Shown here piece after piece: positions 29,928 to 42,954 of a stretch of DNA of 64,000 bases (the stretch's first letter is position 1; each line of letters begins with the position of its first letter). The notes beneath the pieces were generated by a model. That model worked only from the letters and a program-made list of their open reading frames with translations, ran no database searches and was not told the DNA's origin. This DNA is from a virus: positions 1 to 64,000 of IMG/VR virus record IMGVR_UViG_3300046542_000335. The stretch is one strand, 5' to 3'. The translations under genes and the position numbers were made by a program.

Positions 29928-30767
29928 TTAGAACTTCGGTCGAGCTCCCAAGGCTAGCTTCATCACCTTGCGGTAAGCTTCGGTATCATTCATCAACCCG
30001 ATCCGCTGCCACTTGGTGTTCAGGTATTCCTTGTACATCTGGTTCGCATCTGCGTATTGGTCAACAATCTCGCGGATACGGCCAAGGGATGCACCGCCTT
30101 TGATAGCGCCCTCATCGAGGTCGATTACCAGGGTGTTGTAGATGTAGGCCTTAGTAGCCAACGTCACCAGTTCACCAAACGCGTGGTAGTACACCGGCTT
30201 GATGTCGTTGAAGTTGAGTTCGTGAGACAACCTGCAACGCAAACCACCATAAGCGATCATCTGGTTAACGTCATTCACCAATACGGTGTTCTGACCTACC
30301 AGCTGACAGTAAGAGGTGGAGGCGGTGTTTACGCCAACAGAGGCGTTGAGGATGTCCCGCGCATTCTTCAGGAGAACGCTACTACGTTGCATGGTCAAGC
30401 CAGACACGTTGTTGCCGTTCAAACCTTGAGTAATGCCGTAGAGTACCTCGTAGACCGCGGTGATACGACGGCCGTTGGTGACATCGCTACCAAACCGGTA
30501 GATGACGTTCCAAGGGTCGATGTGTTCCACTTCAGCGGCCTGGAGGGGTAGCACCATCTCGGTACCAGACAGCAAGTTGACATCGATAGCCACCCGACCT
30601 TCAACTACGACGGAGCGGATGAGTTCATCGATGGATGCTGCGAAGACGTTGTCCTGGTAACGAACACGTCGTGTGGGGTCATAACGCTTGGGCATGAACG
30701 CTTGCGTCAGCACCGCGCGTGGGACCTCGTTCTTGACATTATTGATGGCGACCGTAACACAGTCCAT
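29928..30767 (-). CDS. Hypothetical protein, 279 aa, divergent from PhuZ
   Basis: Start set at 30767 (MDCVTVAINN), behind AGAGG; an upstream in-frame ATG at 30809 has no RBS and overlaps the promoter gap. Mixed alpha/beta, no membrane segment. It begins with a beta part (AIDVNLLSGTEMVLPLQ), followed by an Asn/Tyr-rich helical half. Only 61 bases separate it from PhuZ, so the two share a divergent control region. Unknown function. Confidence 0.55.
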   Translation of the reverse strand: MDCVTVAINNVKNEVPRAVLTQAFMPKRYDPTRRVRYQDNVFAASIDELIRSVVVEGRVAIDVNLLSGTEMVLPLQAAEVEHIDPWNVIYRFGSDVTNGRRITAVYEVLYGITQGLNGNNVSGLTMQRSSVLLKNARDILNASVGVNTASTSYCQLVGQNTVLVNDVNQMIAYGGLRCRLSHELNFNDIKPVYYHAFGELVTLATKAYIYNTLVIDLDEGAIKGGASLGRIREIVDQYADANQMYKEYLNTKWQRIGLMNDTEAYRKVMKLALGARPKF

Positions 30768-30828
30768 AATCAAAACCTCTTTCTTGGGATCGACATACGA
30801 TTCCCTCAATTAAATAGTGGAGCTCTAC

Positions 30829-31845
30829 ATGAACGCAGTAAACGAAAGCATCAACGCCGATCTGATCAAGCCTAAAACCCGTTCGATCATGTTCTACGCC
30901 TGCGGCGGCACCGGTATCAACCTGCTGCGCAGCCATCGTGAAGACCTGGTCCTGAACCCTGAAGACCAGAACGCCAACGAGCACTTCGCTTACATCGACA
31001 CCTCGTTCGCCAACCTGCACAACGTCCAGGCCAAAGACACCTTCACTCTGAAGGGTCTGGATGGTTCCGGTTCCAACCGTCCGAAGAACGCCGAAGCGAT
31101 CATGGGCGTCCTGCCACAAATCCTGCTGGCTCACGAGCCGAAGGACATGAACGTGGTTCTGTTCTCCGCATCCGGTGGTTCGGGTTCCGTTGCCGGTCCT
31201 CTGATCATGGAAGAACTGCTGAAGCAGGGCAAGATGGCTGTGGCGATCATCATCGGTTCCCACGAAACCCTGAAGCGTACCACCAACACCATCGGTACCC
31301 TGACTGGCCTGGAACAAGCCGTAGCTCGCGTTGGTCGTCCGGTTGTCATGTTCTACGCCGAAAACAACCCGACCAAATCGATCCTGGACAACAACCTGGT
31401 GCCGAAGTTCGTCCTGGGTTCGCTGGGCATGTTGGGTTCGGGCCGTAACAAGGCTCTGGACAGCGCTGACATCCAGAACATGTTCGACTTCCACCTGGTG
31501 TCGCACAACAAGCCAGGTCTGGCCATGCTGGACGTCTTCACCAAATCCGAAGACCTGGCAAAATCCTCGGCCCGTCCGATTGCCTACATCTCGCTGTTGA
31601 CCGGTGAAGATCAGGTTGGTCCTCAGGTCGATGCCGACTACGACAAGACTGGCTACCTGCCGGGTGATGCCGGCAGCAAGAACAATTTCTTCTACACCGT
31701 TTCGGTGGATCACTTGTCCGGCCTGTTCGAGCGCCTGAACAAGCTGAAGAGCACCATTGCCTTGCAGAAGCAAAACCAGCAGGCCACCACCAAGCTGAGC
31801 GACGCTAGCACCGTCACCCACGCCACCGGTCTGGTCTTCGAGTGA
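30829..31845 (+). CDS. phuZ: PhuZ-like phage tubulin
   Basis: Tubulin/FtsZ-type GTPase that forms the spindle which centres the phage nucleus and carries capsids. Start ATG 30829 with GGAG upstream. Seen: GGTGIN at 26-31 (N-terminal nucleotide loop), GSGSNRPKN at 80-88 (a loop typical of PhuZ), and the tubulin signature SGGSGSVAGPL at 115-125 in place of GGGTGSG. Length 338 aa compares with about 315-325 aa for known PhuZ. A Gln/Lys/Thr-rich C-terminal tail replaces the acidic tail I recall for 201phi2-1 PhuZ, so filament contacts may differ. Own unit with a hairpin terminator. Confidence 0.9.
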   Translation: MNAVNESINADLIKPKTRSIMFYACGGTGINLLRSHREDLVLNPEDQNANEHFAYIDTSFANLHNVQAKDTFTLKGLDGSGSNRPKNAEAIMGVLPQILLAHEPKDMNVVLFSASGGSGSVAGPLIMEELLKQGKMAVAIIIGSHETLKRTTNTIGTLTGLEQAVARVGRPVVMFYAENNPTKSILDNNLVPKFVLGSLGMLGSGRNKALDSADIQNMFDFHLVSHNKPGLAMLDVFTKSEDLAKSSARPIAYISLLTGEDQVGPQVDADYDKTGYLPGDAGSKNNFFYTVSVDHLSGLFERLNKLKSTIALQKQNQQATTKLSDASTVTHATGLVFE

Positions 31846-31857
31846 TCTAAACACATC

Positions 31858-31884
31858 GGTACCTGGTAACCCCAGGTACCTTTG
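31858..31884 (+). terminator. Hairpin after phuZ
   Basis: GGTACCTGG pairs with CCAGGTACC around GTAACC (approximately), followed by TTTG. Confidence 0.65.
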
Positions 31885-31914: not shown

Positions 31915-32136
31915 ATGTCTTACGGCGTCTCCATGTTCGTTTGCGAAAGCTGCAACACCATCGACTCTCTCCAACTGACTCCGTCCAATGGCGACGGCTT
32001 CAAATGCCACCAGTGCCGTCACGGCGGTTGGCATGGCGCATTCTCGCAAGAACAGTACGATCCGTTGAAACACCGCGGCCTGCTGAACAAGTCTGATCCC
32101 TCCTTCGAAGACCTGGGCGATCCCTCCTTCTCGTAA
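31915..32136 (+). CDS. Small zinc-ribbon protein, 73 aa
   Basis: AAAGGAAC lies upstream of ATG 31915. CESC and CHQC are 16 residues apart (VCESCNT...FKCHQCRHGGW), a classic four-cysteine zinc ribbon. The C-terminal tail is acidic with repeated DPSF units (SDPSFEDLGDPSFS). Such proteins often bind nucleic acid or a polymerase; the target here is unknown. Confidence 0.7.
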   Translation: MSYGVSMFVCESCNTIDSLQLTPSNGDGFKCHQCRHGGWHGAFSQEQYDPLKHRGLLNKSDPSFEDLGDPSFS

Positions 32137-32281
32137 GCAGATTACCCCCTCCGGCTAGCGTTCGGTCTAAAACCCATATCGCGCTAGCCGAGTGTAACGA
32201 TCGCAGCGTAGAGAAGCTCTCAGGCACCTTCCTGTGTATTTAGTTACAGAATCTACTTATCTAATGTATAAAGGGGGATCT
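32137..32281 (+). other. Noncoding region with hairpin and shared element
   Basis: CGGCTAGCG (32152) pairs perfectly with CGCTAGCCG (32182), directly followed by GAGTGTAACGA (32190), an 11-mer also present in the hairpin array at 28460. Further on TTACAGAATCTACTTATC (about 32230) resembles a degenerate early promoter before the nine-gene array. Confidence 0.45.
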
Positions 32282-32635
32282 ATGGCTTACATCATCACTG
32301 ACATATCTGAGCTCATCAGGATGGTCGACCCCGAACGCACATTGCACCCATCCGTTCTTGAGGACTGGCTGGTCAGGGAGTACACCCACTCCTACGGCAT
32401 CCCATGTACTCAAATGACGCCGTGGCCACAAAGGTCTATCGACGAAGACACAATAAGACTGGATAGAGCAATACAGCGGTTTGCGCTGGACGCGACTACC
32501 TTCTTACCTGTTACTGTCGGAGGACGACTTTGCGATGAAGAACTCTGGTTCCTGGTCAACCGCAATACCTTGATCATTGGAGATTTCCGTGACGTCAGAC
32601 AGTGTTACAGGCTCATTCGTACTAGACTTCGGTGA
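32282..32635 (+). CDS. Paralogue array member 1, 117 aa
   Basis: First of nine consecutive, mostly overlapping small genes of similar plan. ATG 32282 follows GGGGG. It starts with the strand MAYIITDISELIRM, which recurs in altered form in all members (hydrophobic strand, D or E, then a helix). The end is Arg-rich. No named family. It overlaps the next gene by 47 bases. Membership in the array rests on pattern similarity, not on high identity. Confidence 0.55.
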   Translation: MAYIITDISELIRMVDPERTLHPSVLEDWLVREYTHSYGIPCTQMTPWPQRSIDEDTIRLDRAIQRFALDATTFLPVTVGGRLCDEELWFLVNRNTLIIGDFRDVRQCYRLIRTRLR

Positions 32636-33119
32636 GCTTGCCAATCAAATCTACCAATCAGCCCTTCGCTACGAGGAGAAAGGATCGCGGCACTTGCAGA
32701 ATGATGCGTCAGATTTGGTTTACGACATGATTGACGACTTCATTACCGAGCAGCTGTACTGGGCTCGTCCTCTGCAACGCCGTCCATCGGCAGACGCGAG
32801 GGATCTGTTGCGTCATGAACGCGTCGACAGACGTAGGAACCGTCGGGATGAGTTTTACCCGCAACAGCCCTACGAAGGCACCAATCTGCGCGTGAAGTAC
32901 AAACACCTGTTGAGGAACATCCCCAATCCTGGAGAACTCCTTGACCGTATATCCGATCGAATGGCAGAAATGGTCTACGATCATATCGACCTCCCGACCT
33001 GGCGCATCGTTCACCTCACTCGTCACCGCAATGGCGTACTGGTGGAGATCGGTGAAGATTATCGGGTTGAGCAGTGGATGAAAGAGCATGGCCACGAATA
33101 CGGCTTCAGAGTCGACTAA
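32589..33119 (+). CDS. Paralogue array member 2, 176 aa, GTG start
   Basis: GTG 32589 with TTGGAG upstream. Opens with GSFVLDFGELANQIYQSALRY, the same strand-helix opening as member 1. It has a long helix, an Arg-rich linker (RRPSADARDLLRHERVDRRRNRR), and closes with a strand WRIVHLTRHRNGVLVEIGED. This opening and closing pair is repeated in the next genes. Overlaps member 3 by 32 bases. Confidence 0.55.
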   Translation: MTSDSVTGSFVLDFGELANQIYQSALRYEEKGSRHLQNDASDLVYDMIDDFITEQLYWARPLQRRPSADARDLLRHERVDRRRNRRDEFYPQQPYEGTNLRVKYKHLLRNIPNPGELLDRISDRMAEMVYDHIDLPTWRIVHLTRHRNGVLVEIGEDYRVEQWMKEHGHEYGFRVD

Positions 33120-33630
33120 GGTTGTTCGTTACTGCCGAATAGGCTGTAGTGAATTTATCCGACAAATGCGTAATGTGTTGGAATCCTCCCGCATGGACCT
33201 GTTTAAGGTTCAAAAGGCAGCAGAGGATATCCTGGTGGAAACCTTTATCCGGTGCTTCAGCGGACAGGGGAGTACCATCCTGGACATCCTGGAAGACTTA
33301 CGGCCTCACCGCGTTGACCGCAGGGATATGATCAACGTCCTCATTGAGTTTGAGGACTTCGTTTATAAGGACAAGACCCTGAGTGACATGCGGCGTTTCA
33401 CCGTAGTGGATGCGAAGTTCATCTACGACACGCCGTTATTGGAAGTCGAGTATCATGAAACAGTACCTAAGGAGGAGACACAGTCGTTTAGTCGATTTAT
33501 CCGACAAAGGCGACAGGCTGGAGACCTCATCCACCCCGCGATCGAGAAGGCACTCGAGGAATTCAATCGAGAGCTGGACCATAGTTCCACCGTACACCGG
33601 CAAGGCCGAATATCGCCACGTCGTCGTTGA
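33088..33630 (+). CDS. Paralogue array member 3, 180 aa
   Basis: ATG 33088 with AAAGAG. Opening strand-helix VVRYCRIGCSEFIRQMRNVL; helical core; closing strand FIYDTPLLEVEYHET. About 40 further residues follow (FSRFIRQRRQAGDLIHPAIEKALEEFNREL), an extension not seen in the others. The last 15 residues look atypical, and the frame +1 to it carries the next member, so a frameshift near 33570-33610 is possible. Confidence 0.5.
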   Translation: MATNTASESTKVVRYCRIGCSEFIRQMRNVLESSRMDLFKVQKAAEDILVETFIRCFSGQGSTILDILEDLRPHRVDRRDMINVLIEFEDFVYKDKTLSDMRRFTVVDAKFIYDTPLLEVEYHETVPKEETQSFSRFIRQRRQAGDLIHPAIEKALEEFNRELDHSSTVHRQGRISPRRR

Positions 33631-33949
33631 CCTGGAAGATATAGAGTTCCAATCCCTGGAGCAGGATCTGTGTGCTGAGGCTGATGTTATCCTCAAAGCG
33701 TTTATCCACTATATCTGCTACGATGACGATTTCTTTCTAGCCCGTCTGACGGATGAGTTCTTACCGCCTGACGATATAGGGAGAGCGGCCATGGCGATAG
33801 ATGTTTGGTTTTCCATACACCTGGATAAGTTCCGGGACGTCTTTGCTGTTGTGAAGCGGTTTGCCCCAATGAGGGTGAATAATGTCGAAATCAAACAAAG
33901 GTCGGTACTCCTCGAGCTTACTTACGAGGACTTCATCGATGCCACCTAG
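33455..33949 (+). CDS. Paralogue array member 4, start uncertain
   Basis: The conserved part begins at about 33602 (YRHVVVDLEDIEF) and closes with VEIKQRSVLLELTYEDF. No ATG, GTG or TTG lies near that point: the nearest in-frame ATG is 33455, which gives 164 aa, an unlikely Arg/Ser-rich extension and a 176-base overlap with member 3. Alternatives are initiation at ATA 33581, or a +1 frameshift joining members 3 and 4. Annotated from 33455 only for want of a better start. Confidence 0.4.
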   Translation: MKQYLRRRHSRLVDLSDKGDRLETSSTPRSRRHSRNSIESWTIVPPYTGKAEYRHVVVDLEDIEFQSLEQDLCAEADVILKAFIHYICYDDDFFLARLTDEFLPPDDIGRAAMAIDVWFSIHLDKFRDVFAVVKRFAPMRVNNVEIKQRSVLLELTYEDFIDAT

Positions 33950-34343
33950 CGTAGATTTGTACCCAGGATTCGTCCTGACGTTGGATCCTGATCTGTCAGG
34001 GGCTCTCAATGCCTTGGGAGAACAGGTGGACTACGACAATGGGAAGGAGCTGCCATGCGTCCTGCTGTCGATCATGCTGTTTGGGTTGGTAGCACCGCAC
34101 GATGAGGTGATGCGTGCTTTCGAAAGATTGTCCGTACATTACAAGAATCCCCAGAGTGAAGACTACTCAGAGTTCTGGGGCGGGTTCCAAGCAACGTTCT
34201 ATGTGTTCAAGCGTCGGTACATACACGACGAAGATCTCAAGAACATGATTCATGACGTCCTTCCGCGTGACTGCGATTATTGCGAGGAGGGTTTACTCCG
34301 CGTCAAGTCCAGTCGGTCAGGGAGACATTTCTTTATAAGCTGA
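33939..34343 (+). CDS. Paralogue array member 5, 134 aa
   Basis: ATG 33939 (MPPSVDLYPGF) with GAGG nine bases upstream; overlaps the end of member 4 by 11 bases. Opening FVLTLDPDLSGALNALGEQ and a helical core. The close contains CDYC and ends SGRHFFIS. More diverged than its neighbours. Confidence 0.5.
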   Translation: MPPSVDLYPGFVLTLDPDLSGALNALGEQVDYDNGKELPCVLLSIMLFGLVAPHDEVMRAFERLSVHYKNPQSEDYSEFWGGFQATFYVFKRRYIHDEDLKNMIHDVLPRDCDYCEEGLLRVKSSRSGRHFFIS

Positions 34344-34351
34344 GGCCAGCT

Positions 34352-34690
34352 ATGCAAGTAGAACGTTACGTACTTGAGTTGCCAGAGTTTCCGGTCATGA
34401 AGCGAGACGCTGCTGAGCGTATCGTGAAAGAGGTCATCACCATGACGGCTGAAGCCAACGTGGGACTGGACCGTGAGGTATTGGGGAGTATCAGTCGGGA
34501 ACACGAGGTGACGCTGCACGATGTGGAGTTGTACATCAACCGTCTACTGACGATCCTGTACAACACCAAGATCTTCAGCTCCGTCTTGAATGTGAGTCAT
34601 CCATTGTCGAACGTCGACGTAGAGGTTGCTCACCGCCAAGCTTTTGTGGAGATCGCATGGAATGACAGGGCTAACAAGAACCACCCGTGA
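34352..34690 (+). CDS. Paralogue array member 6, 112 aa
   Basis: ATG 34352 (MQVERYVLELPEF) with GAGG seven bases upstream, eight bases after member 5. Opening strand RYVLELPE, helices with many Glu/Arg, closing strand DVEVAHRQAFVEIAWND. Overlaps member 7 by 29 bases. Confidence 0.55.
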   Translation: MQVERYVLELPEFPVMKRDAAERIVKEVITMTAEANVGLDREVLGSISREHEVTLHDVELYINRLLTILYNTKIFSSVLNVSHPLSNVDVEVAHRQAFVEIAWNDRANKNHP

Positions 34691-35036
34691 GTTGGTGTTG
34701 ATCCATGATTACGGCCTGAGGGATTTCGTATCCCTTCAGGATGTCCAGCACACGCTGGGTAAGTTGAGCGTCATGTTCCAGAAGGATATAGAAGGAGACG
34801 TATCGGACAAGCCCTACTCGCTGGGGCTTTATCTGGGGTGGGATAACCTGGATCTCCTGTCCGTGCACCTCGGTCCGTATTCCCAGGAACAGAAGTTGTT
34901 TCGTATCCTGTGCGATCACTTATATGGCGTTTACTCACTTGGTTCAATTTACACGCTCCAGGCGACCCAGTTCAAGCGAGCGGGGCCATTTCTATTACTG
35001 TCAGTTGATACGAGGTGGAAAATTGGCCACTGGTGA
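34662..35036 (+). CDS. Paralogue array member 7, 124 aa
   Basis: ATG 34662 (MTGLTRTTRELVLIHDY) with GGAG five bases before it. Opening ELVLIHDYGLRDFV, helical core, closing ATQFKRAGPFLLLSVDTRW. Overlaps member 8 by 14 bases. Confidence 0.55.
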   Translation: MTGLTRTTRELVLIHDYGLRDFVSLQDVQHTLGKLSVMFQKDIEGDVSDKPYSLGLYLGWDNLDLLSVHLGPYSQEQKLFRILCDHLYGVYSLGSIYTLQATQFKRAGPFLLLSVDTRWKIGHW

Positions 35037-35400
35037 CATTGACTTCTGTGTAGTCGATATCACTGAGCCGACCCGAGCACTCATTCGGTATCTGGATGGG
35101 AGGTTAGACGAGTTGAACTATCGTCCTGACCTGGTCATCCAGAAACAAGCCGTCTGGGGACGGCGAATGTCCAATGGTGCTAACCGCGAGAAACTCGCTC
35201 GGGAACTGCGAAGTGATGAGGTGTTTAAATCATTGGGAGCTGCTGAAGTAGCCGCCGATTACTTATTGGATGAGTACTACCCTGCGCTCGAGAGTATCTT
35301 CAGACACGTTGGTCTGCATGCAGCCGCCGTACATCTTGTGCGATTAACCATTTCCAATTCACGTCAAATCCATGCCAGAGTTTTGGTGGCCTGTATCTGA
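35023..35400 (+). CDS. Paralogue array member 8, TTG start, 125 aa
   Basis: TTG 35023 is preceded by GAGGTGG and starts the product just before the conserved opening DFCVVDITEPTRALIRYL. A longer frame from ATG 34924 would overlap member 7 by 113 bases. Closing part HLVRLTISNSRQIHARVLVA. The start fits the rule seen in the other members, where translation begins a few residues before the opening strand. Confidence 0.5.
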   Translation: MATGDIDFCVVDITEPTRALIRYLDGRLDELNYRPDLVIQKQAVWGRRMSNGANREKLARELRSDEVFKSLGAAEVAADYLLDEYYPALESIFRHVGLHAAAVHLVRLTISNSRQIHARVLVACI

Positions 35401-35420
35401 CGTACCCCTGGACCACTGCC

Positions 35421-35780
35421 ATGAGCTACTACATACTGGGACATTCCCCGAAACTAGGATCGATGTTAACCACGCTGGTCTGGGACCTCGTGCGGAATGA
35501 CCCTGTTCTCGGGGAGGTTCCGCGGAGACTCTCCAAGAAATCAGTAGCTTTCAAGGAGTGCTGGGATTTCGTTCTCGAAAGCCTGGTCCAAGGTGAAGGT
35601 TATCTTGACAGCCTGGGTATTGACCTGGATCCACTCTGGGACAACATCGACCACGACGAGTTGGAATCAGTCCTGTCCGTAGGACTGGTACACAAACTCG
35701 AGATGGTTGAACACGGTTACTTCAGCGCCCTGTTAATGGAGACACCTTTAAATGCAGTTGAATTCCGATGCACTCAATAA
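35421..35780 (+). CDS. Paralogue array member 9, 119 aa
   Basis: ATG 35421 (MSYYILGHSPKLGSML) with a weak RBS (TGGACC). Helical core (LSKKSVAFKECWDFVLESLV), closing LVHKLEMVEHGYFSALLMET. Overlaps the next gene by 29 bases. Last member of the array by this pattern. Confidence 0.5.
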   Translation: MSYYILGHSPKLGSMLTTLVWDLVRNDPVLGEVPRRLSKKSVAFKECWDFVLESLVQGEGYLDSLGIDLDPLWDNIDHDELESVLSVGLVHKLEMVEHGYFSALLMETPLNAVEFRCTQ

Positions 35781-36144
35781 GACGATTACCTTCGACACGT
35801 ACGAAGGTGTTCGTTACAAGAACTTGCGCTTCGTGGCCATCCTGGATGCCGCCACTGTAACAGCCCTGGGCTTCGATGCTCCGGCGAAGCACATGCAGAA
35901 CTACCCTTACCTCCCACCAGGGGTATCGGACTCGTACACGGGCTACAGCTACGCCAAGCTGATCAATGCCAATAACGAGACCATCTACATGGGCGTTCCT
36001 TGGGTCAAGCCTTCCTCCATCACGGAGAATGCCAACCCGGTGCGACTGATCACCCTCCGCAACTCTGACGATAATACGTTGGCGTCCCTGCGGTCGATGA
36101 TGATCGCCCATGGCATTGAAGACTTCACCATCGAAACAAAGTGA
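35752..36144 (+). CDS. Hypothetical protein, 130 aa
   Basis: ATG 35752 with GGAG upstream. Starts MQLNSDALNKTITFDTYEG and is beta-rich with Pro/Tyr/Asn-rich loops. It does not show the opening and closing pattern of the array before it. Two Ile/Thr/Glu-rich strands near the end (NPVRLITLRNSDDNTLASL). No family recognised. Last gene of the long operon; a strong terminator follows. Confidence 0.55.
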   Translation: MQLNSDALNKTITFDTYEGVRYKNLRFVAILDAATVTALGFDAPAKHMQNYPYLPPGVSDSYTGYSYAKLINANNETIYMGVPWVKPSSITENANPVRLITLRNSDDNTLASLRSMMIAHGIEDFTIETK

Positions 36145-36151
36145 CATATAG

Positions 36152-36194
36152 CCCACCTGCCTGACGGCGGGTGGGTTTGTGCCCTTTCTTTTTT
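36152..36194 (+). terminator. Rho-independent terminator
   Basis: CCCACCTGCC-TGAC-GGCGGGTGGG, then TTTGTGCCCTTTCTTTTTTT. Confidence 0.88.
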
Positions 36195-36243
36195 TACTAG
36201 GCGTACTTACGTAATGTAGAGCAATGTACCCCTGGAGCAATAG

Positions 36244-38364
36244 ATGAACCCATTTCTTCTTCCCCTCGACGAATATAACCGCAATCTGGATGTCCGTCAG
36301 GGCTACATCGAACAAACTGCCAAGTACATCTCGTTGCAATTAAAGAAGCCGCTGTCCGAGTGTCTCGACTACGTCAAGAAAGAGACCCGTCGCGGTGGTA
36401 AGTTCGAGTTCAAAGATCCACAAATGCTACAACTGGTCCGTAAAGGTCCGGGTCACCGTGAACCGGAAGAGACCACCTTCCTGGGTTACGTGAACGAGGT
36501 GATCGATACCAACCGTATCCTTTCCCCGTCCATGGTGATCTACGAGCGTCCTGAGGTTGAGAAGTCCGTAACCGCCGAATGGCAGGACGACAACATCGCC
36601 GCTCGTAAGCGCTCCAAGAAGCGCATGTTCGTCTTGAAGCAAGAAGGGGACGTACTGGGCAGTCAACTGGCCGACTATGACCAAAACGCCCGTAAGATCC
36701 GAATCAACTCCGTGTCCGGTATGCGTGGCTTTGAGGGTAACCCTCTGTTCATCGCCACTGGCCACTCCAGCCTGACATCTCTGTGCCGTGCAGCAGCAGG
36801 TTACGGTAACGCTACGGTAGAGCGTTTCCTGGCTGGTTCCCGTCATTACCACACGCCAGAGATCGCCAAGGCCAACATCGTGGCAGTCTGCACCATCGAG
36901 AAGCGCGCAGCGTTTGCTGACGTGATCGATAAGTACGGGATCAACTACCCAACCGTAGACCAAGTCTGCAAGATGATCTCCCGTTCGACTGACCTCTACT
37001 GGAGCGACGTCACCGAAGATGCCATCATCCGTTCGGCGGTAGAAGGCATGACCGCTCTGGAACGTGCGATCTTCTGTTACTCCGGCGACATGTACCACTT
37101 GGCTCAGTACAACGACCAAGTGATCCGTGACATGCTGACCACTCTGATCGCAATCGACATCAGCGACGTTCCTGACGTTGTAACTGACGACGTGATCAAA
37201 GGCATGGATCCTACTGACCTGGCCTATGTGAACGCCCTGTGCGCTACAGTGCTGCGTGGGTCGACTTACGACCGGGTTAAGGCAAACGATCCAGTGGGTT
37301 GGCAAACGATCGGTAAGGTGGCGTGGAAGGTCCAGCAGGGTCTGAATCACTACGCTGACTTCATCACTATGTTCTTTGCGACTTCCCACCTCCCACCAAC
37401 CGTAGCCTCGTTGAAATCCATTCAGCGCCGGGTATGTTTGGCAGCGGATACCGACTCCTCCATCTTTACCTGCGAAGGTTGGGTTGAATGGTACTCGGGT
37501 AACCTGATGCGTGGGGAAGAACAGGACCGTATCTGGTACCTGGCTACTTACATGGTCTGCCAGTGCATCGCTCACTCGTTGGCTAAGCTGTCCACCAACA
37601 TTGGCGTTGAGAAGTCCCAGACCTTCCGTCTGGCAATGAAGAACGAGTACGCGTTCCCTCAGTTCGCATTGACGAATCTGGCGAAGCACTACTACTCCAC
37701 CATGTCCATGCGGGAAGGTAACGTCTATAAAGAGCTGGAGATGGAGACCAAGGGCGTGGAGCTGCGTGGTTCGACTTCGCAGAAGCACATCCTGAAAGCC
37801 ACTGCGGACTTGATGGAATCGACCCTCCATGCGGTGAACGAAGGCAAGAAGCTCAATGCCGGCGATACACTGAAACTGGTGGCGAACTCTGAGCTGGAAT
37901 GCGTCCGGTCTATCCTGCGGGGTGAGTACACCTTCCTGAAGTCGGACAACATCAAGCCAGACAGTAAGAAGATGCCTTACCATGAACTGTGGCAAGACGT
38001 GTTCGGTCCGAAGTACGGCAAGATGACTGAGCCTCCGTACGCTTGCGTGAAGCTGTCCCTCGACCTGAGCAACCAAACAGCCCTCAAGGCTTGGCTGGCT
38101 GACCTGGAAGACCGGGAGTTCGCTGAACGGATGGCGCTGTGGTGCTCCCGTTACAACCGCAAAGACCTGAACACCATCCTGTTGCCGACTCAGGCGATCC
38201 GTAGCTGTGGTCTGCCGATTGAGATCCAACAGGCAGCCAACATCCGCAAACTGGCCTACCAGATCAACTCCGGCTTCTACCGGATCCTGGAATCCATGGG
38301 CCTGTTCATTGTGGACAGAAACAACCTGCGTCTGGTGTACGACTTCTTGGGGCTTGAGCCATGA
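36244..38364 (+). CDS. Family B DNA polymerase, C-terminal (palm-thumb) part
   Basis: 706 aa. Seen: motif B-like RKIRINSVSG at 150-159 followed by a helix (compare K-x3-NS-x-YG), motif C AADTDSSIF with D402-T403-D404 (compare YxDTDS), and a thumb-type segment near 478-515 (LAKHYYSTM ... ETKGVELRGS, compare KKRY...KGvelvR). Missing: any exonuclease domain and motif A (SLYPSII), so this is only part of a split polymerase whose N-terminal partner lies outside the window. Motifs B and C are about 245 residues apart instead of about 60, so a large insertion sits between them. GGAG upstream of ATG 36244; overlaps the next gene (ATGA). Confidence 0.75.
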   Translation: MNPFLLPLDEYNRNLDVRQGYIEQTAKYISLQLKKPLSECLDYVKKETRRGGKFEFKDPQMLQLVRKGPGHREPEETTFLGYVNEVIDTNRILSPSMVIYERPEVEKSVTAEWQDDNIAARKRSKKRMFVLKQEGDVLGSQLADYDQNARKIRINSVSGMRGFEGNPLFIATGHSSLTSLCRAAAGYGNATVERFLAGSRHYHTPEIAKANIVAVCTIEKRAAFADVIDKYGINYPTVDQVCKMISRSTDLYWSDVTEDAIIRSAVEGMTALERAIFCYSGDMYHLAQYNDQVIRDMLTTLIAIDISDVPDVVTDDVIKGMDPTDLAYVNALCATVLRGSTYDRVKANDPVGWQTIGKVAWKVQQGLNHYADFITMFFATSHLPPTVASLKSIQRRVCLAADTDSSIFTCEGWVEWYSGNLMRGEEQDRIWYLATYMVCQCIAHSLAKLSTNIGVEKSQTFRLAMKNEYAFPQFALTNLAKHYYSTMSMREGNVYKELEMETKGVELRGSTSQKHILKATADLMESTLHAVNEGKKLNAGDTLKLVANSELECVRSILRGEYTFLKSDNIKPDSKKMPYHELWQDVFGPKYGKMTEPPYACVKLSLDLSNQTALKAWLADLEDREFAERMALWCSRYNRKDLNTILLPTQAIRSCGLPIEIQQAANIRKLAYQINSGFYRILESMGLFIVDRNNLRLVYDFLGLEP

Positions 38365-40974: not shown

Positions 40975-42954
40975 ATGAGCGATACTTTTGTAACTGACGC
41001 ACCTGCTTCCGAGCCACGTCGTGAAGATACCCGTTCCGAGCTGCGCGAAGATACCCGCCGCGACGAACGTGATTCCCGCGATGGTGACCGTGGCAGCCGT
41101 GGTCGTCGCGATGAGAATCGTGATACCCAGGTGACCTTCGCTGACATGTCGCGTCTGCAAGCCCGTCCTTCCATGGGCGGCCTCAGCGACGCGGTACTGG
41201 CCACGCTGGTCAACACCTTCGAGAACGCCAAGTCGTACGACAAGCCGGGCGTTCCTGCTGAAACCAAGCGCAACCTGTTCAAGGTCATCCCGATGGATGG
41301 CTCGCTGGCACGTTCTTCGCAATCCAGCCTGCTGGTGGTTCTGCCTGCTGTAATCGGTGCCGAGCGTTTCGCACTGACCTACATCCTGCTGATCGAACAA
41401 TCCGGCGATGTACAAACCCGTCCGTTGATCGAACGCGGCGAAACGTTTGATGCTCTGGTTCTGCCAGAAGATCACCTGACCGAAACGTACATCAACATCG
41501 TACGTGATCAGGCAGCTGCTGCCGTTGGCGGCGTGGCTCGTGTTGTTGGCAATCAGGTTATCCTGGCTGACACCTTCACGCACCGCACCGAGAAAGAGAT
41601 GGAGCAGATCATTGCTCACATCTACGATAATGCCTTCGAGGCGATCTGCGGGTTCCGCGAGAACATGATCGACGCCAAGTCGGGCGTTCGTTCCTCGCAG
41701 TTCCGTGTTAGCCCGGACAAGATGGGTAAAGGCTCCCGCCTGGAAGTTTCGTTCGACTACACCGGTAAGCAAGTGGTTGATACCTCTGGCCTGCCGATCC
41801 GTAGCGACGTGACCACCAACCTGTACTACTCCGAGCCGAACGGCGACGACAACCTGTTCTCCCGTACCAAAATGGGCGACATTCGCTGCGGCCTGGACCT
41901 GTTCGTCTCCTACGACGAGAAGGGCGAAAGCGAGCAACGTCGTTTCGGCGGTCGTCGCCGTCGTGGTCGTGATCTGGAATCTCCGTTCTGGCAAGCAGTG
42001 TTGAACATCAACTCTGTTGGCTCGGGCGACTTCCCGTACTCGCTGGAACTGGCGCAACTGCTGATCGCTCAGTCGGTGCAACAGTCCAACGATTACCGTT
42101 GGGCCACCATGCTGCGTCCGCGTAGCACCATGGCAGAAGGTCTGAAGCCTCTGATGTCGCTGGGCCATCTGTTCCTGATGAACCCGGACGAAGAAGCTGC
42201 ATGCGTTGCCAAGGACATCGGTCCGAACATCAACGACAACGACCTGGCCGATTACCTCGACCTGACCGTCAAGCCGGACATCGCCTTCGGCATGACCGTT
42301 CCATCCTCGGGCGAGAAGTCCTGGGTACTGTCGATCTACGAGCGCATTGCGATCGCAGAGCCTGGCAGCGAGCTGGACGATCTGATCGACCTGCTGCACG
42401 CCTCGGCTGACGTGCTGACCGGCAACCGCTTCAGCGCGGCGCTGGAGAAGCGTAACCTGGGTAACGACTACCGTCCGGTGTACACCACCGGTAGCCGTGC
42501 TCTGCTGGGCACCTGGTTGGACGAGAACCAGAACCGTCGTGACGTCCGTGAATGGAACGTCCCTGCGTTGCTGGCTCGTGTTGGCGAGAAGAACCTGGAT
42601 CTGGTATCGGACTTCCAGGCTACTTTCGAAGACACCCGTCGTTCGATCGAGTTCAACCTGGCTGAGCGTTACGCGATCCTGCGTAAAGTGGTTCCTGGTC
42701 TGCACGTTACCGGCACTGCCGAGCAACTGGCGTTCGACCTGGACTACCTGATCGCTCTGCAAGACGCGCTGGATGGTGCGAAGATGTCTCCGCACGTTTC
42801 GTCCAACGATGGTCTGTCGACTCGTCGCTCGATCGGTCACGATGGCTACAGCCGCTACGCTACCAGCGAAATCGGTCGTACCCGTCGCAACCGTAACGAC
42901 GACAACGTCGACCGTCGCGGTCGTCGTCCGTACAACGGTGGCAACTACTACTAA
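40975..42954 (+). CDS. chmA: Chimallin (ChmA), phage nucleus shell protein
   Basis: Major protein that assembles the protein shell around replicating phage DNA. 659 aa (201phi2-1 gp105 is 631 aa). Seen: a core segment VVDTSGLPIRSD that matches DTVGNPIRAD in 201phi2-1 ChmA as I recall it; and a segment with FWQAVLNI...ELAQLLIAQSV...RWATMLRP...LKPLMSLGHL that follows the same pattern as ChmA. The RNAP beta' N-terminal gene follows directly, the phiKZ gp54-gp55 order. Odd: the first 50 residues are extremely Arg/Asp/Glu-rich (RRDERDSRDGDRGSRGRR), and the C-terminus is an Arg/Asn/Gly/Tyr-rich tail, both probably flexible linkers between lattice subunits. GGAG upstream; own early-type promoter and terminator. 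Confidence 0.85.
   Translation: MSDTFVTDAPASEPRREDTRSELREDTRRDERDSRDGDRGSRGRRDENRDTQVTFADMSRLQARPSMGGLSDAVLATLVNTFENAKSYDKPGVPAETKRNLFKVIPMDGSLARSSQSSLLVVLPAVIGAERFALTYILLIEQSGDVQTRPLIERGETFDALVLPEDHLTETYINIVRDQAAAAVGGVARVVGNQVILADTFTHRTEKEMEQIIAHIYDNAFEAICGFRENMIDAKSGVRSSQFRVSPDKMGKGSRLEVSFDYTGKQVVDTSGLPIRSDVTTNLYYSEPNGDDNLFSRTKMGDIRCGLDLFVSYDEKGESEQRRFGGRRRRGRDLESPFWQAVLNINSVGSGDFPYSLELAQLLIAQSVQQSNDYRWATMLRPRSTMAEGLKPLMSLGHLFLMNPDEEAACVAKDIGPNINDNDLADYLDLTVKPDIAFGMTVPSSGEKSWVLSIYERIAIAEPGSELDDLIDLLHASADVLTGNRFSAALEKRNLGNDYRPVYTTGSRALLGTWLDENQNRRDVREWNVPALLARVGEKNLDLVSDFQATFEDTRRSIEFNLAERYAILRKVVPGLHVTGTAEQLAFDLDYLIALQDALDGAKMSPHVSSNDGLSTRRSIGHDGYSRYATSEIGRTRRNRNDDNVDRRGRRPYNGGNYY

Follow-up and report, generated by a model that had tools for sequence, protein, structure and literature searches.

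The core genes of the nucleus-forming phages (Chimalliviridae) are defined by PSI-BLAST presence in >95% of phages (PMC10299810), and phiKZ genes 039, 042, 049 and 050 are listed as core matches (PMC12571901). The product of phiKZ049 (gp049) is an SH3DP, an SH3-fold domain associated with phage DNA polymerases, and has been described as a polymerase interactor, the silencing of which strongly reduced plaques (PMC12571901). A classical sliding clamp is reported to be lacking in phiKZ-type phages (PMC7824862). Several small proteins encoded near SH3DP in these phages, namely phiKZ gp044-gp048, PhiPA3 gp040-gp045, 201phi2-1 gp76-gp80 and EL gp17-gp19, are annotated as hypothetical; they are not grouped as a family in the publications consulted, and we found no publication discussing the locus tags phiKZ044-048.

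Here we describe an array of nine such genes in a 64,000-nt stretch of DNA, hereafter the window, which belongs to a virus record of 74.7 kb (IMG/VR IMGVR_UViG_3300046542_000335). The window encodes PhuZ (30829-31845), a divergent family-B DNA polymerase of the chimallivirus type (36244-38364, + strand) and chimallin (ChmA; 40975-42954, E 4e-46), which together identify the source as a nucleus-forming jumbo phage. PhuZ, SH3DP and the polymerase are all present and follow one another in the conserved order, and with ChmA this places the phage in the Chimalliviridae. The nearest named relative of the polymerase is that of Pseudomonas phage pPa_SNUABM_DT01 (43% identity), and a search of cellular genome contigs with the polymerase as query gave no match. 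The interval from PhuZ to the polymerase holds a small zinc-ribbon gene, the nine array genes (g1 to g9) and then g10, the SH3DP gene. The arrays of phiKZ, PhiPA3, 201phi2-1 and EL resemble this one in their interval and size class, and several of their members are found among the structural neighbors of the proteins modeled below, whereas they comprise 3-6 copies as compared to nine here.

All nine open reading frames listed in the initial annotation, of about 112-180 aa, were found in tandem on the + strand between PhuZ and the polymerase gene. They are real genes, since about 12 related contigs carry their orthologs in the same order and the dN/dS values against the closest relatives range from 0.07 to 0.32 across g1-g9, indicating purifying selection on all nine. 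The first gene, g1 (32282-32635; 117 aa; orthologs in 12 loci), has a strong SD, AAGGGGGA, before its ATG, and its equivalent in the DT01 clade is d1 (hhalign probability 85%). The most widespread and most recognizable member is g2 (32589-33119), which encodes 176 aa from GTG 32589, preceded by the SD GGAG, or 180 aa from TTG 32577. It is located near the array start in many chimalliviruses, its profile matches Eowyn gp075, JHP1101 gp217, FBKp24 gp322 and proteins in the contigs L050 and L055, and it clusters with FLC9 gp9 and LucasX gp49. The next gene, g3 (33088-33630; 180 aa), is present in 12 loci and missing from contig L027. The start of g4 (33455-33949) is putative: its core, at about 33584-33949, has no ATG, GTG or TTG nearby, and the closest canonical upstream start is ATG 33455, 176 nt into g3. 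In the majority of relatives, the ATG closest to the g4 core on its upstream side is situated about 110-176 nt within g3, and in contig L021 there is a GTG at 89 nt. Frame statistics for the overlap of g4 with g3 (33455-33630) show no clear dual-coding constraint, and codon statistics do not single out a start for g4.

The remaining genes are g5 (33939-34343; 134 aa from ATG 33939; 13 loci), g6 (34352-34690; 112 aa; 13 loci), g7 (34662-35036; 124 aa; 15 loci), g8 (35023-35400; 125 aa from TTG 35023 with an upstream SD, within a longer ORF from ATG 34924) and g9 (35421-35780; 119 aa; 15 loci). The impression that nearly all of these genes overlap the next one by 11-47 bases was correct for most of the array. 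Six junctions overlap, namely g1/g2 (47 nt from GTG 32589), g2/g3 (32 nt), g3/g4, g4/g5 (11 nt), g6/g7 (29 nt) and g7/g8 (at least 14 nt), but the g3/g4 overlap is long and gaps of 8 nt and 20 nt separate g5 from g6 and g8 from g9.

The proteins g4 and g8, which were the only members modeled, have no detectable mutual sequence similarity, and their AlphaFold2 models show one and the same succession of secondary-structure elements, β-α-α-α-long α (25 residues)-β-β. The g8 model (pLDDT 90.9, pTM 0.84) has strands at residues 7-12, 101-110 and 116-124 and helices at 14-27, 35-45, 52-64 and 71-95, and the g4 model (pLDDT 85.2, pTM 0.78) has strands at 10-16, 97-104 and 107-113 and helices at 23-29, 33-46, 50-57 and 62-86. 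Among the BFVD neighbors of the two models, small proteins from other chimalliviruses predominate, and the two top-50 lists have 18 entries in common. Matches fitting array genes, with accessions assigned by organism and length only, include the consecutive PhiEaH1 gp027-030, Eowyn gp076/079/083, Psa21 gp038/040/042/043, 201phi2-1 gp78-80, PhiPA3 gp044, a phiKZ gp047-like protein and Ea35-70 gp212. Taken singly, the Foldseek matches have poor E-values (2e-4 at best) and a TM of about 0.4-0.6, and a fold search of the PDB with g8 returned noise only and no matching solved structure. We infer that g1, g2, g3, g5, g6, g7 and g9 share the fold of g4 and g8. A family-averaged Chou-Fasman prediction, which reached 63-68% on g4 and g8, was not relied on.

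The initial annotation had also read strands at both ends of the proteins, which we examined in array proteins from 11 named phages against 132 control proteins from the same phages. The signal for an N-terminal strand is genuine and exceeds chance, with a strand propensity higher than in the controls (p 7e-5) and a hydrophobic-D/N motif in 33/81 array proteins vs 22/132 controls (p 1e-4), whereas that for a C-terminal strand is weaker (p 0.05). Simple hmmsearch runs with the individual families gave no link among g1-g9, and such links emerge only with group statistics and a maximum-sensitivity search. With hhalign, similarity among the ten families of the window clade exceeded their similarity to seven control families from flanking genes (p 1e-4), to column-shuffled profiles (p 1.6e-9) and to reversed profiles (p 2e-4), these group p-values being approximate because pairs were treated as independent. 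In several of the best-scoring pairs the N-terminal strands are aligned with each other. The all-against-all comparison sets the group apart from the controls (p about 1e-4), but no single pair in the window is significant (best probability 15%). Furthermore, array HMMs match other array proteins about four times as often as they match the 132 control proteins.

Paralogs recognizable by sequence occur within the arrays of relatives, in contigs L055 (E 3e-7) and L058 (E 1e-4), and a trio of consecutive families (F23/F24/F25) gave mutual matches at E 4e-6 to 1e-4. In the window clade, an additional gene, x5, is linked to g5 (E 5e-4). The profile ties of the unmodeled members are weak for g2, g3, g5 and g7 (g7 to g8, E 0.004; g3 to g2, E 0.013) and weaker for g1, g6 and g9, the similarity of g6 to g4 being in register but weak. 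Profile searches with g4 and g8 detected no additional copy anywhere in the 74.7-kb record. The matching topology of the two modeled proteins, the group profile similarity above controls and the paralogs within the arrays of relatives all bear out the proposal of diverged paralogs with a shared fold. We consider it very probable that the nine genes are diverged tandem paralogs of one small fold in a conserved slot; their common origin is well supported, for the seven unmodeled genes on weaker evidence. That no family had been recognized also held, with no significant match in Pfam, PHROGs, PADLOC or the PDB and weak sub-threshold matches only. Pfam matches of g2 to a TFIID/TAF12-like family and of g6 to Orthopox B11R were below cut-off and were treated as chance.

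Array-like clusters are located upstream of the SH3DP and polymerase genes in every chimallivirus examined. The slot is occupied in phiKZ, 201phi2-1, PhiPA3, EL, Ea35-70, FLC9, LucasX, Eowyn, FBKp24, SPN3US, JHP1101, SNUABM_54, PhiEaH1, Psa21, DT01 and several IMG/VR contigs. With array limits in the named phages set by position and size, the number of genes ranges from about 3 (EL) to 11 (Eowyn, contig L055). The array sits among the phiKZ-type core genes listed in PMC12571901, and its proteins, being so diverged, would be expected to fail the PSI-BLAST criterion of PMC10299810. Published core genomes rest on sequence similarity, so a family that is kept in position and fold rather than in sequence is missed, and the array has gone unrecognized as a shared feature in sequence-based surveys. 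Its position, next to the gene for the polymerase partner SH3DP, which is essential in phiKZ, falls within the genome region that is conserved best. Its recognition adds a fold for which there is no solved structure and unites dozens of hypothetical genes that look unrelated, those for phiKZ gp044-048 among them, in one testable set.

Variation among the relatives concerns both gene content and sequence. Most relatives carry the extra gene x5 between g5 and g6, the window's own subclade does not, and contigs L023 and L024 carry a further extra gene, x4. Orthologs of g4 and g8 are about 15-25% identical where the polymerase is about 60-68% identical, and SH3DP identity is 38-48% at distances where that of g4 and g8 is about 20%. 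Synonymous divergence of g1, g2, g5, g6 and g7 is higher than that of the polymerase. In g2 (32589-33119) the identity is 88% to contig L005 and 57% to L007, yet the polymerase is closer to that of L007, and g7 (34662-35036) is 65% identical in L003 although the polymerase of L003 is 98% identical. Such lineage-inconsistent identities, along with the high synonymous divergence, suggest that single array genes have been exchanged between relatives, and allelic exchange of this kind may explain part of the apparent fast divergence. Because spurious antisense ORFs were included among the neighboring ORFs, a pooled comparison of dN with them gave no usable information, and only per-gene values were used.

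The array abuts g10 (35752-36144, + strand), the SH3DP gene (Pfam PF20287, E 2e-19) and equivalent of phiKZ gp049, the start of which overlaps g9 by 29 nt. SH3DP is much better conserved than the array proteins and belongs to a different family; it is not a member of the fold. A hairpin with a T-run, resembling an intrinsic terminator, is located in the gap between g10 and the polymerase gene (36152-36196, + strand). Given the overlap with g9 and this hairpin, the array and SH3DP are probably co-expressed as one unit. Alignments of g4 and g8 have few conserved columns, which are mostly hydrophobic or aromatic, and no conserved catalytic residues, and it is therefore unlikely that the array proteins are enzymes.

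One hypothesis is that the array proteins are non-enzymatic binding or adaptor subunits, which would be produced together with SH3DP and would pair with SH3DP, the polymerase or each other in a complex associated with replication inside the phage nucleus. The paralogs would then occupy distinct, retained places, and what is constrained would be the fold and the interface, not the sequence. The polymerase interaction and silencing phenotype of SH3DP, the reported lack of a classical clamp and the likely co-expression point in this direction, and the association itself is seen as gene adjacency. The copy number of 3-11 counts against such a role, being unusual for subunits of a fixed complex. 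We put the accessory role with SH3DP and the polymerase forward tentatively, as one possibility among several, while the explanation as a whole, a paralogous fold array together with an accessory-subunit role, is the one that we moderately favor. It is improbable, although conceivable, that the paralogs form a hetero-oligomeric factor that is recruited through SH3DP and replaces the classical sliding clamp; if so, the subunit number would be lineage-specific and the fold one not seen in any solved structure.

Nearly as likely as accessory subunits, and thus itself doubtful, is that the proteins are adaptors for host takeover or counter-defence, each paralog binding a different host protein and copies being kept for many hosts or defences. 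Small paralogous genes also form tandem arrays at other phage loci, for example anti-CRISPR loci, which share with this array small, overlapping genes of low identity. The weak constraint on sequence (identity of about 20% at a polymerase identity of 61-68%), the variable copy number, the allele differences in single genes, such as the 57% and 88% identities of g2 to L007 and L005, and the lack of conserved catalytic residues would all suit such adaptors. However, unlike anti-CRISPR-type loci, the array has a stable order and membership, one fold among its modeled members and a fixed site in the replication block. Nearly all members are retained across about 12 loci, and no positive selection is seen at the gene level (dN/dS 0.07-0.32). 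A comparison with PADLOC, a collection of defence and not of anti-defence proteins, also gave no match. The fast diversification that the initial annotation had likened to counter-defence is not supported by these data, since they reveal neither rapid gene gain and loss nor positive selection, and the array adjoins SH3DP rather than being placed in an accessory island.

We also considered the possibility that the array encodes components of the phage-nucleus shell, import system or spindle, since it is present in all chimalliviruses examined, adjoins PhuZ and is about 5 kb from ChmA. This seems unlikely, because the tight run of genes is with SH3DP, a hairpin intervenes between PhuZ and the array, and the published factors PicA, ChmB and ChmC are encoded elsewhere (PMC13282480, PMC12571901). 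That the nine are unrelated small accessory genes, alike by chance in size and in a simple alpha/beta make-up, could be argued from the weak pairwise sequence signals and the frequency of alpha/beta structures among small phage proteins. This interpretation is disfavored and improbable in view of the identical topology and common BFVD neighbors of g4 and g8, the profile signals in excess of controls and the true paralogs in L055 and L058. Least probable is that they are minor virion proteins belonging to the ejected contents of the head: paralogous head-protein families occur in phiKZ-like phages, according to PMC5694885, but the 201phi2-1 record carries a mass-spectrometry note on the neighboring gp73 and gp81 and none on gp76-gp80, and the array is located in the replication block.

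The surroundings of the array contain a few additional features. A 9-bp hairpin 3' of PhuZ (31858-31880, strand unassigned) is a possible terminator, and an inverted repeat (CGGCTAGCG/CGCTAGCCG) without a T-run is found in the leader of g1 (32150-32195). A promoter scan gave no more matches than expected by chance. The zinc-ribbon gene (31915-32136, + strand), which has two conserved CxxC pairs, is located between PhuZ and the array in both the window and DT01 clades. Just upstream of PhuZ, a reverse-strand gene (29928-30809) has 91-93% identity in close relatives and could putatively correspond to the reverse-strand phiKZ gp042, a hit in an essential-gene screen. In the related contigs L050 (11146-13140) and L053 (13202-15196), a 664-aa ORF between PhuZ and the array resembles, as judged by eye, an NAD-dependent DNA ligase.
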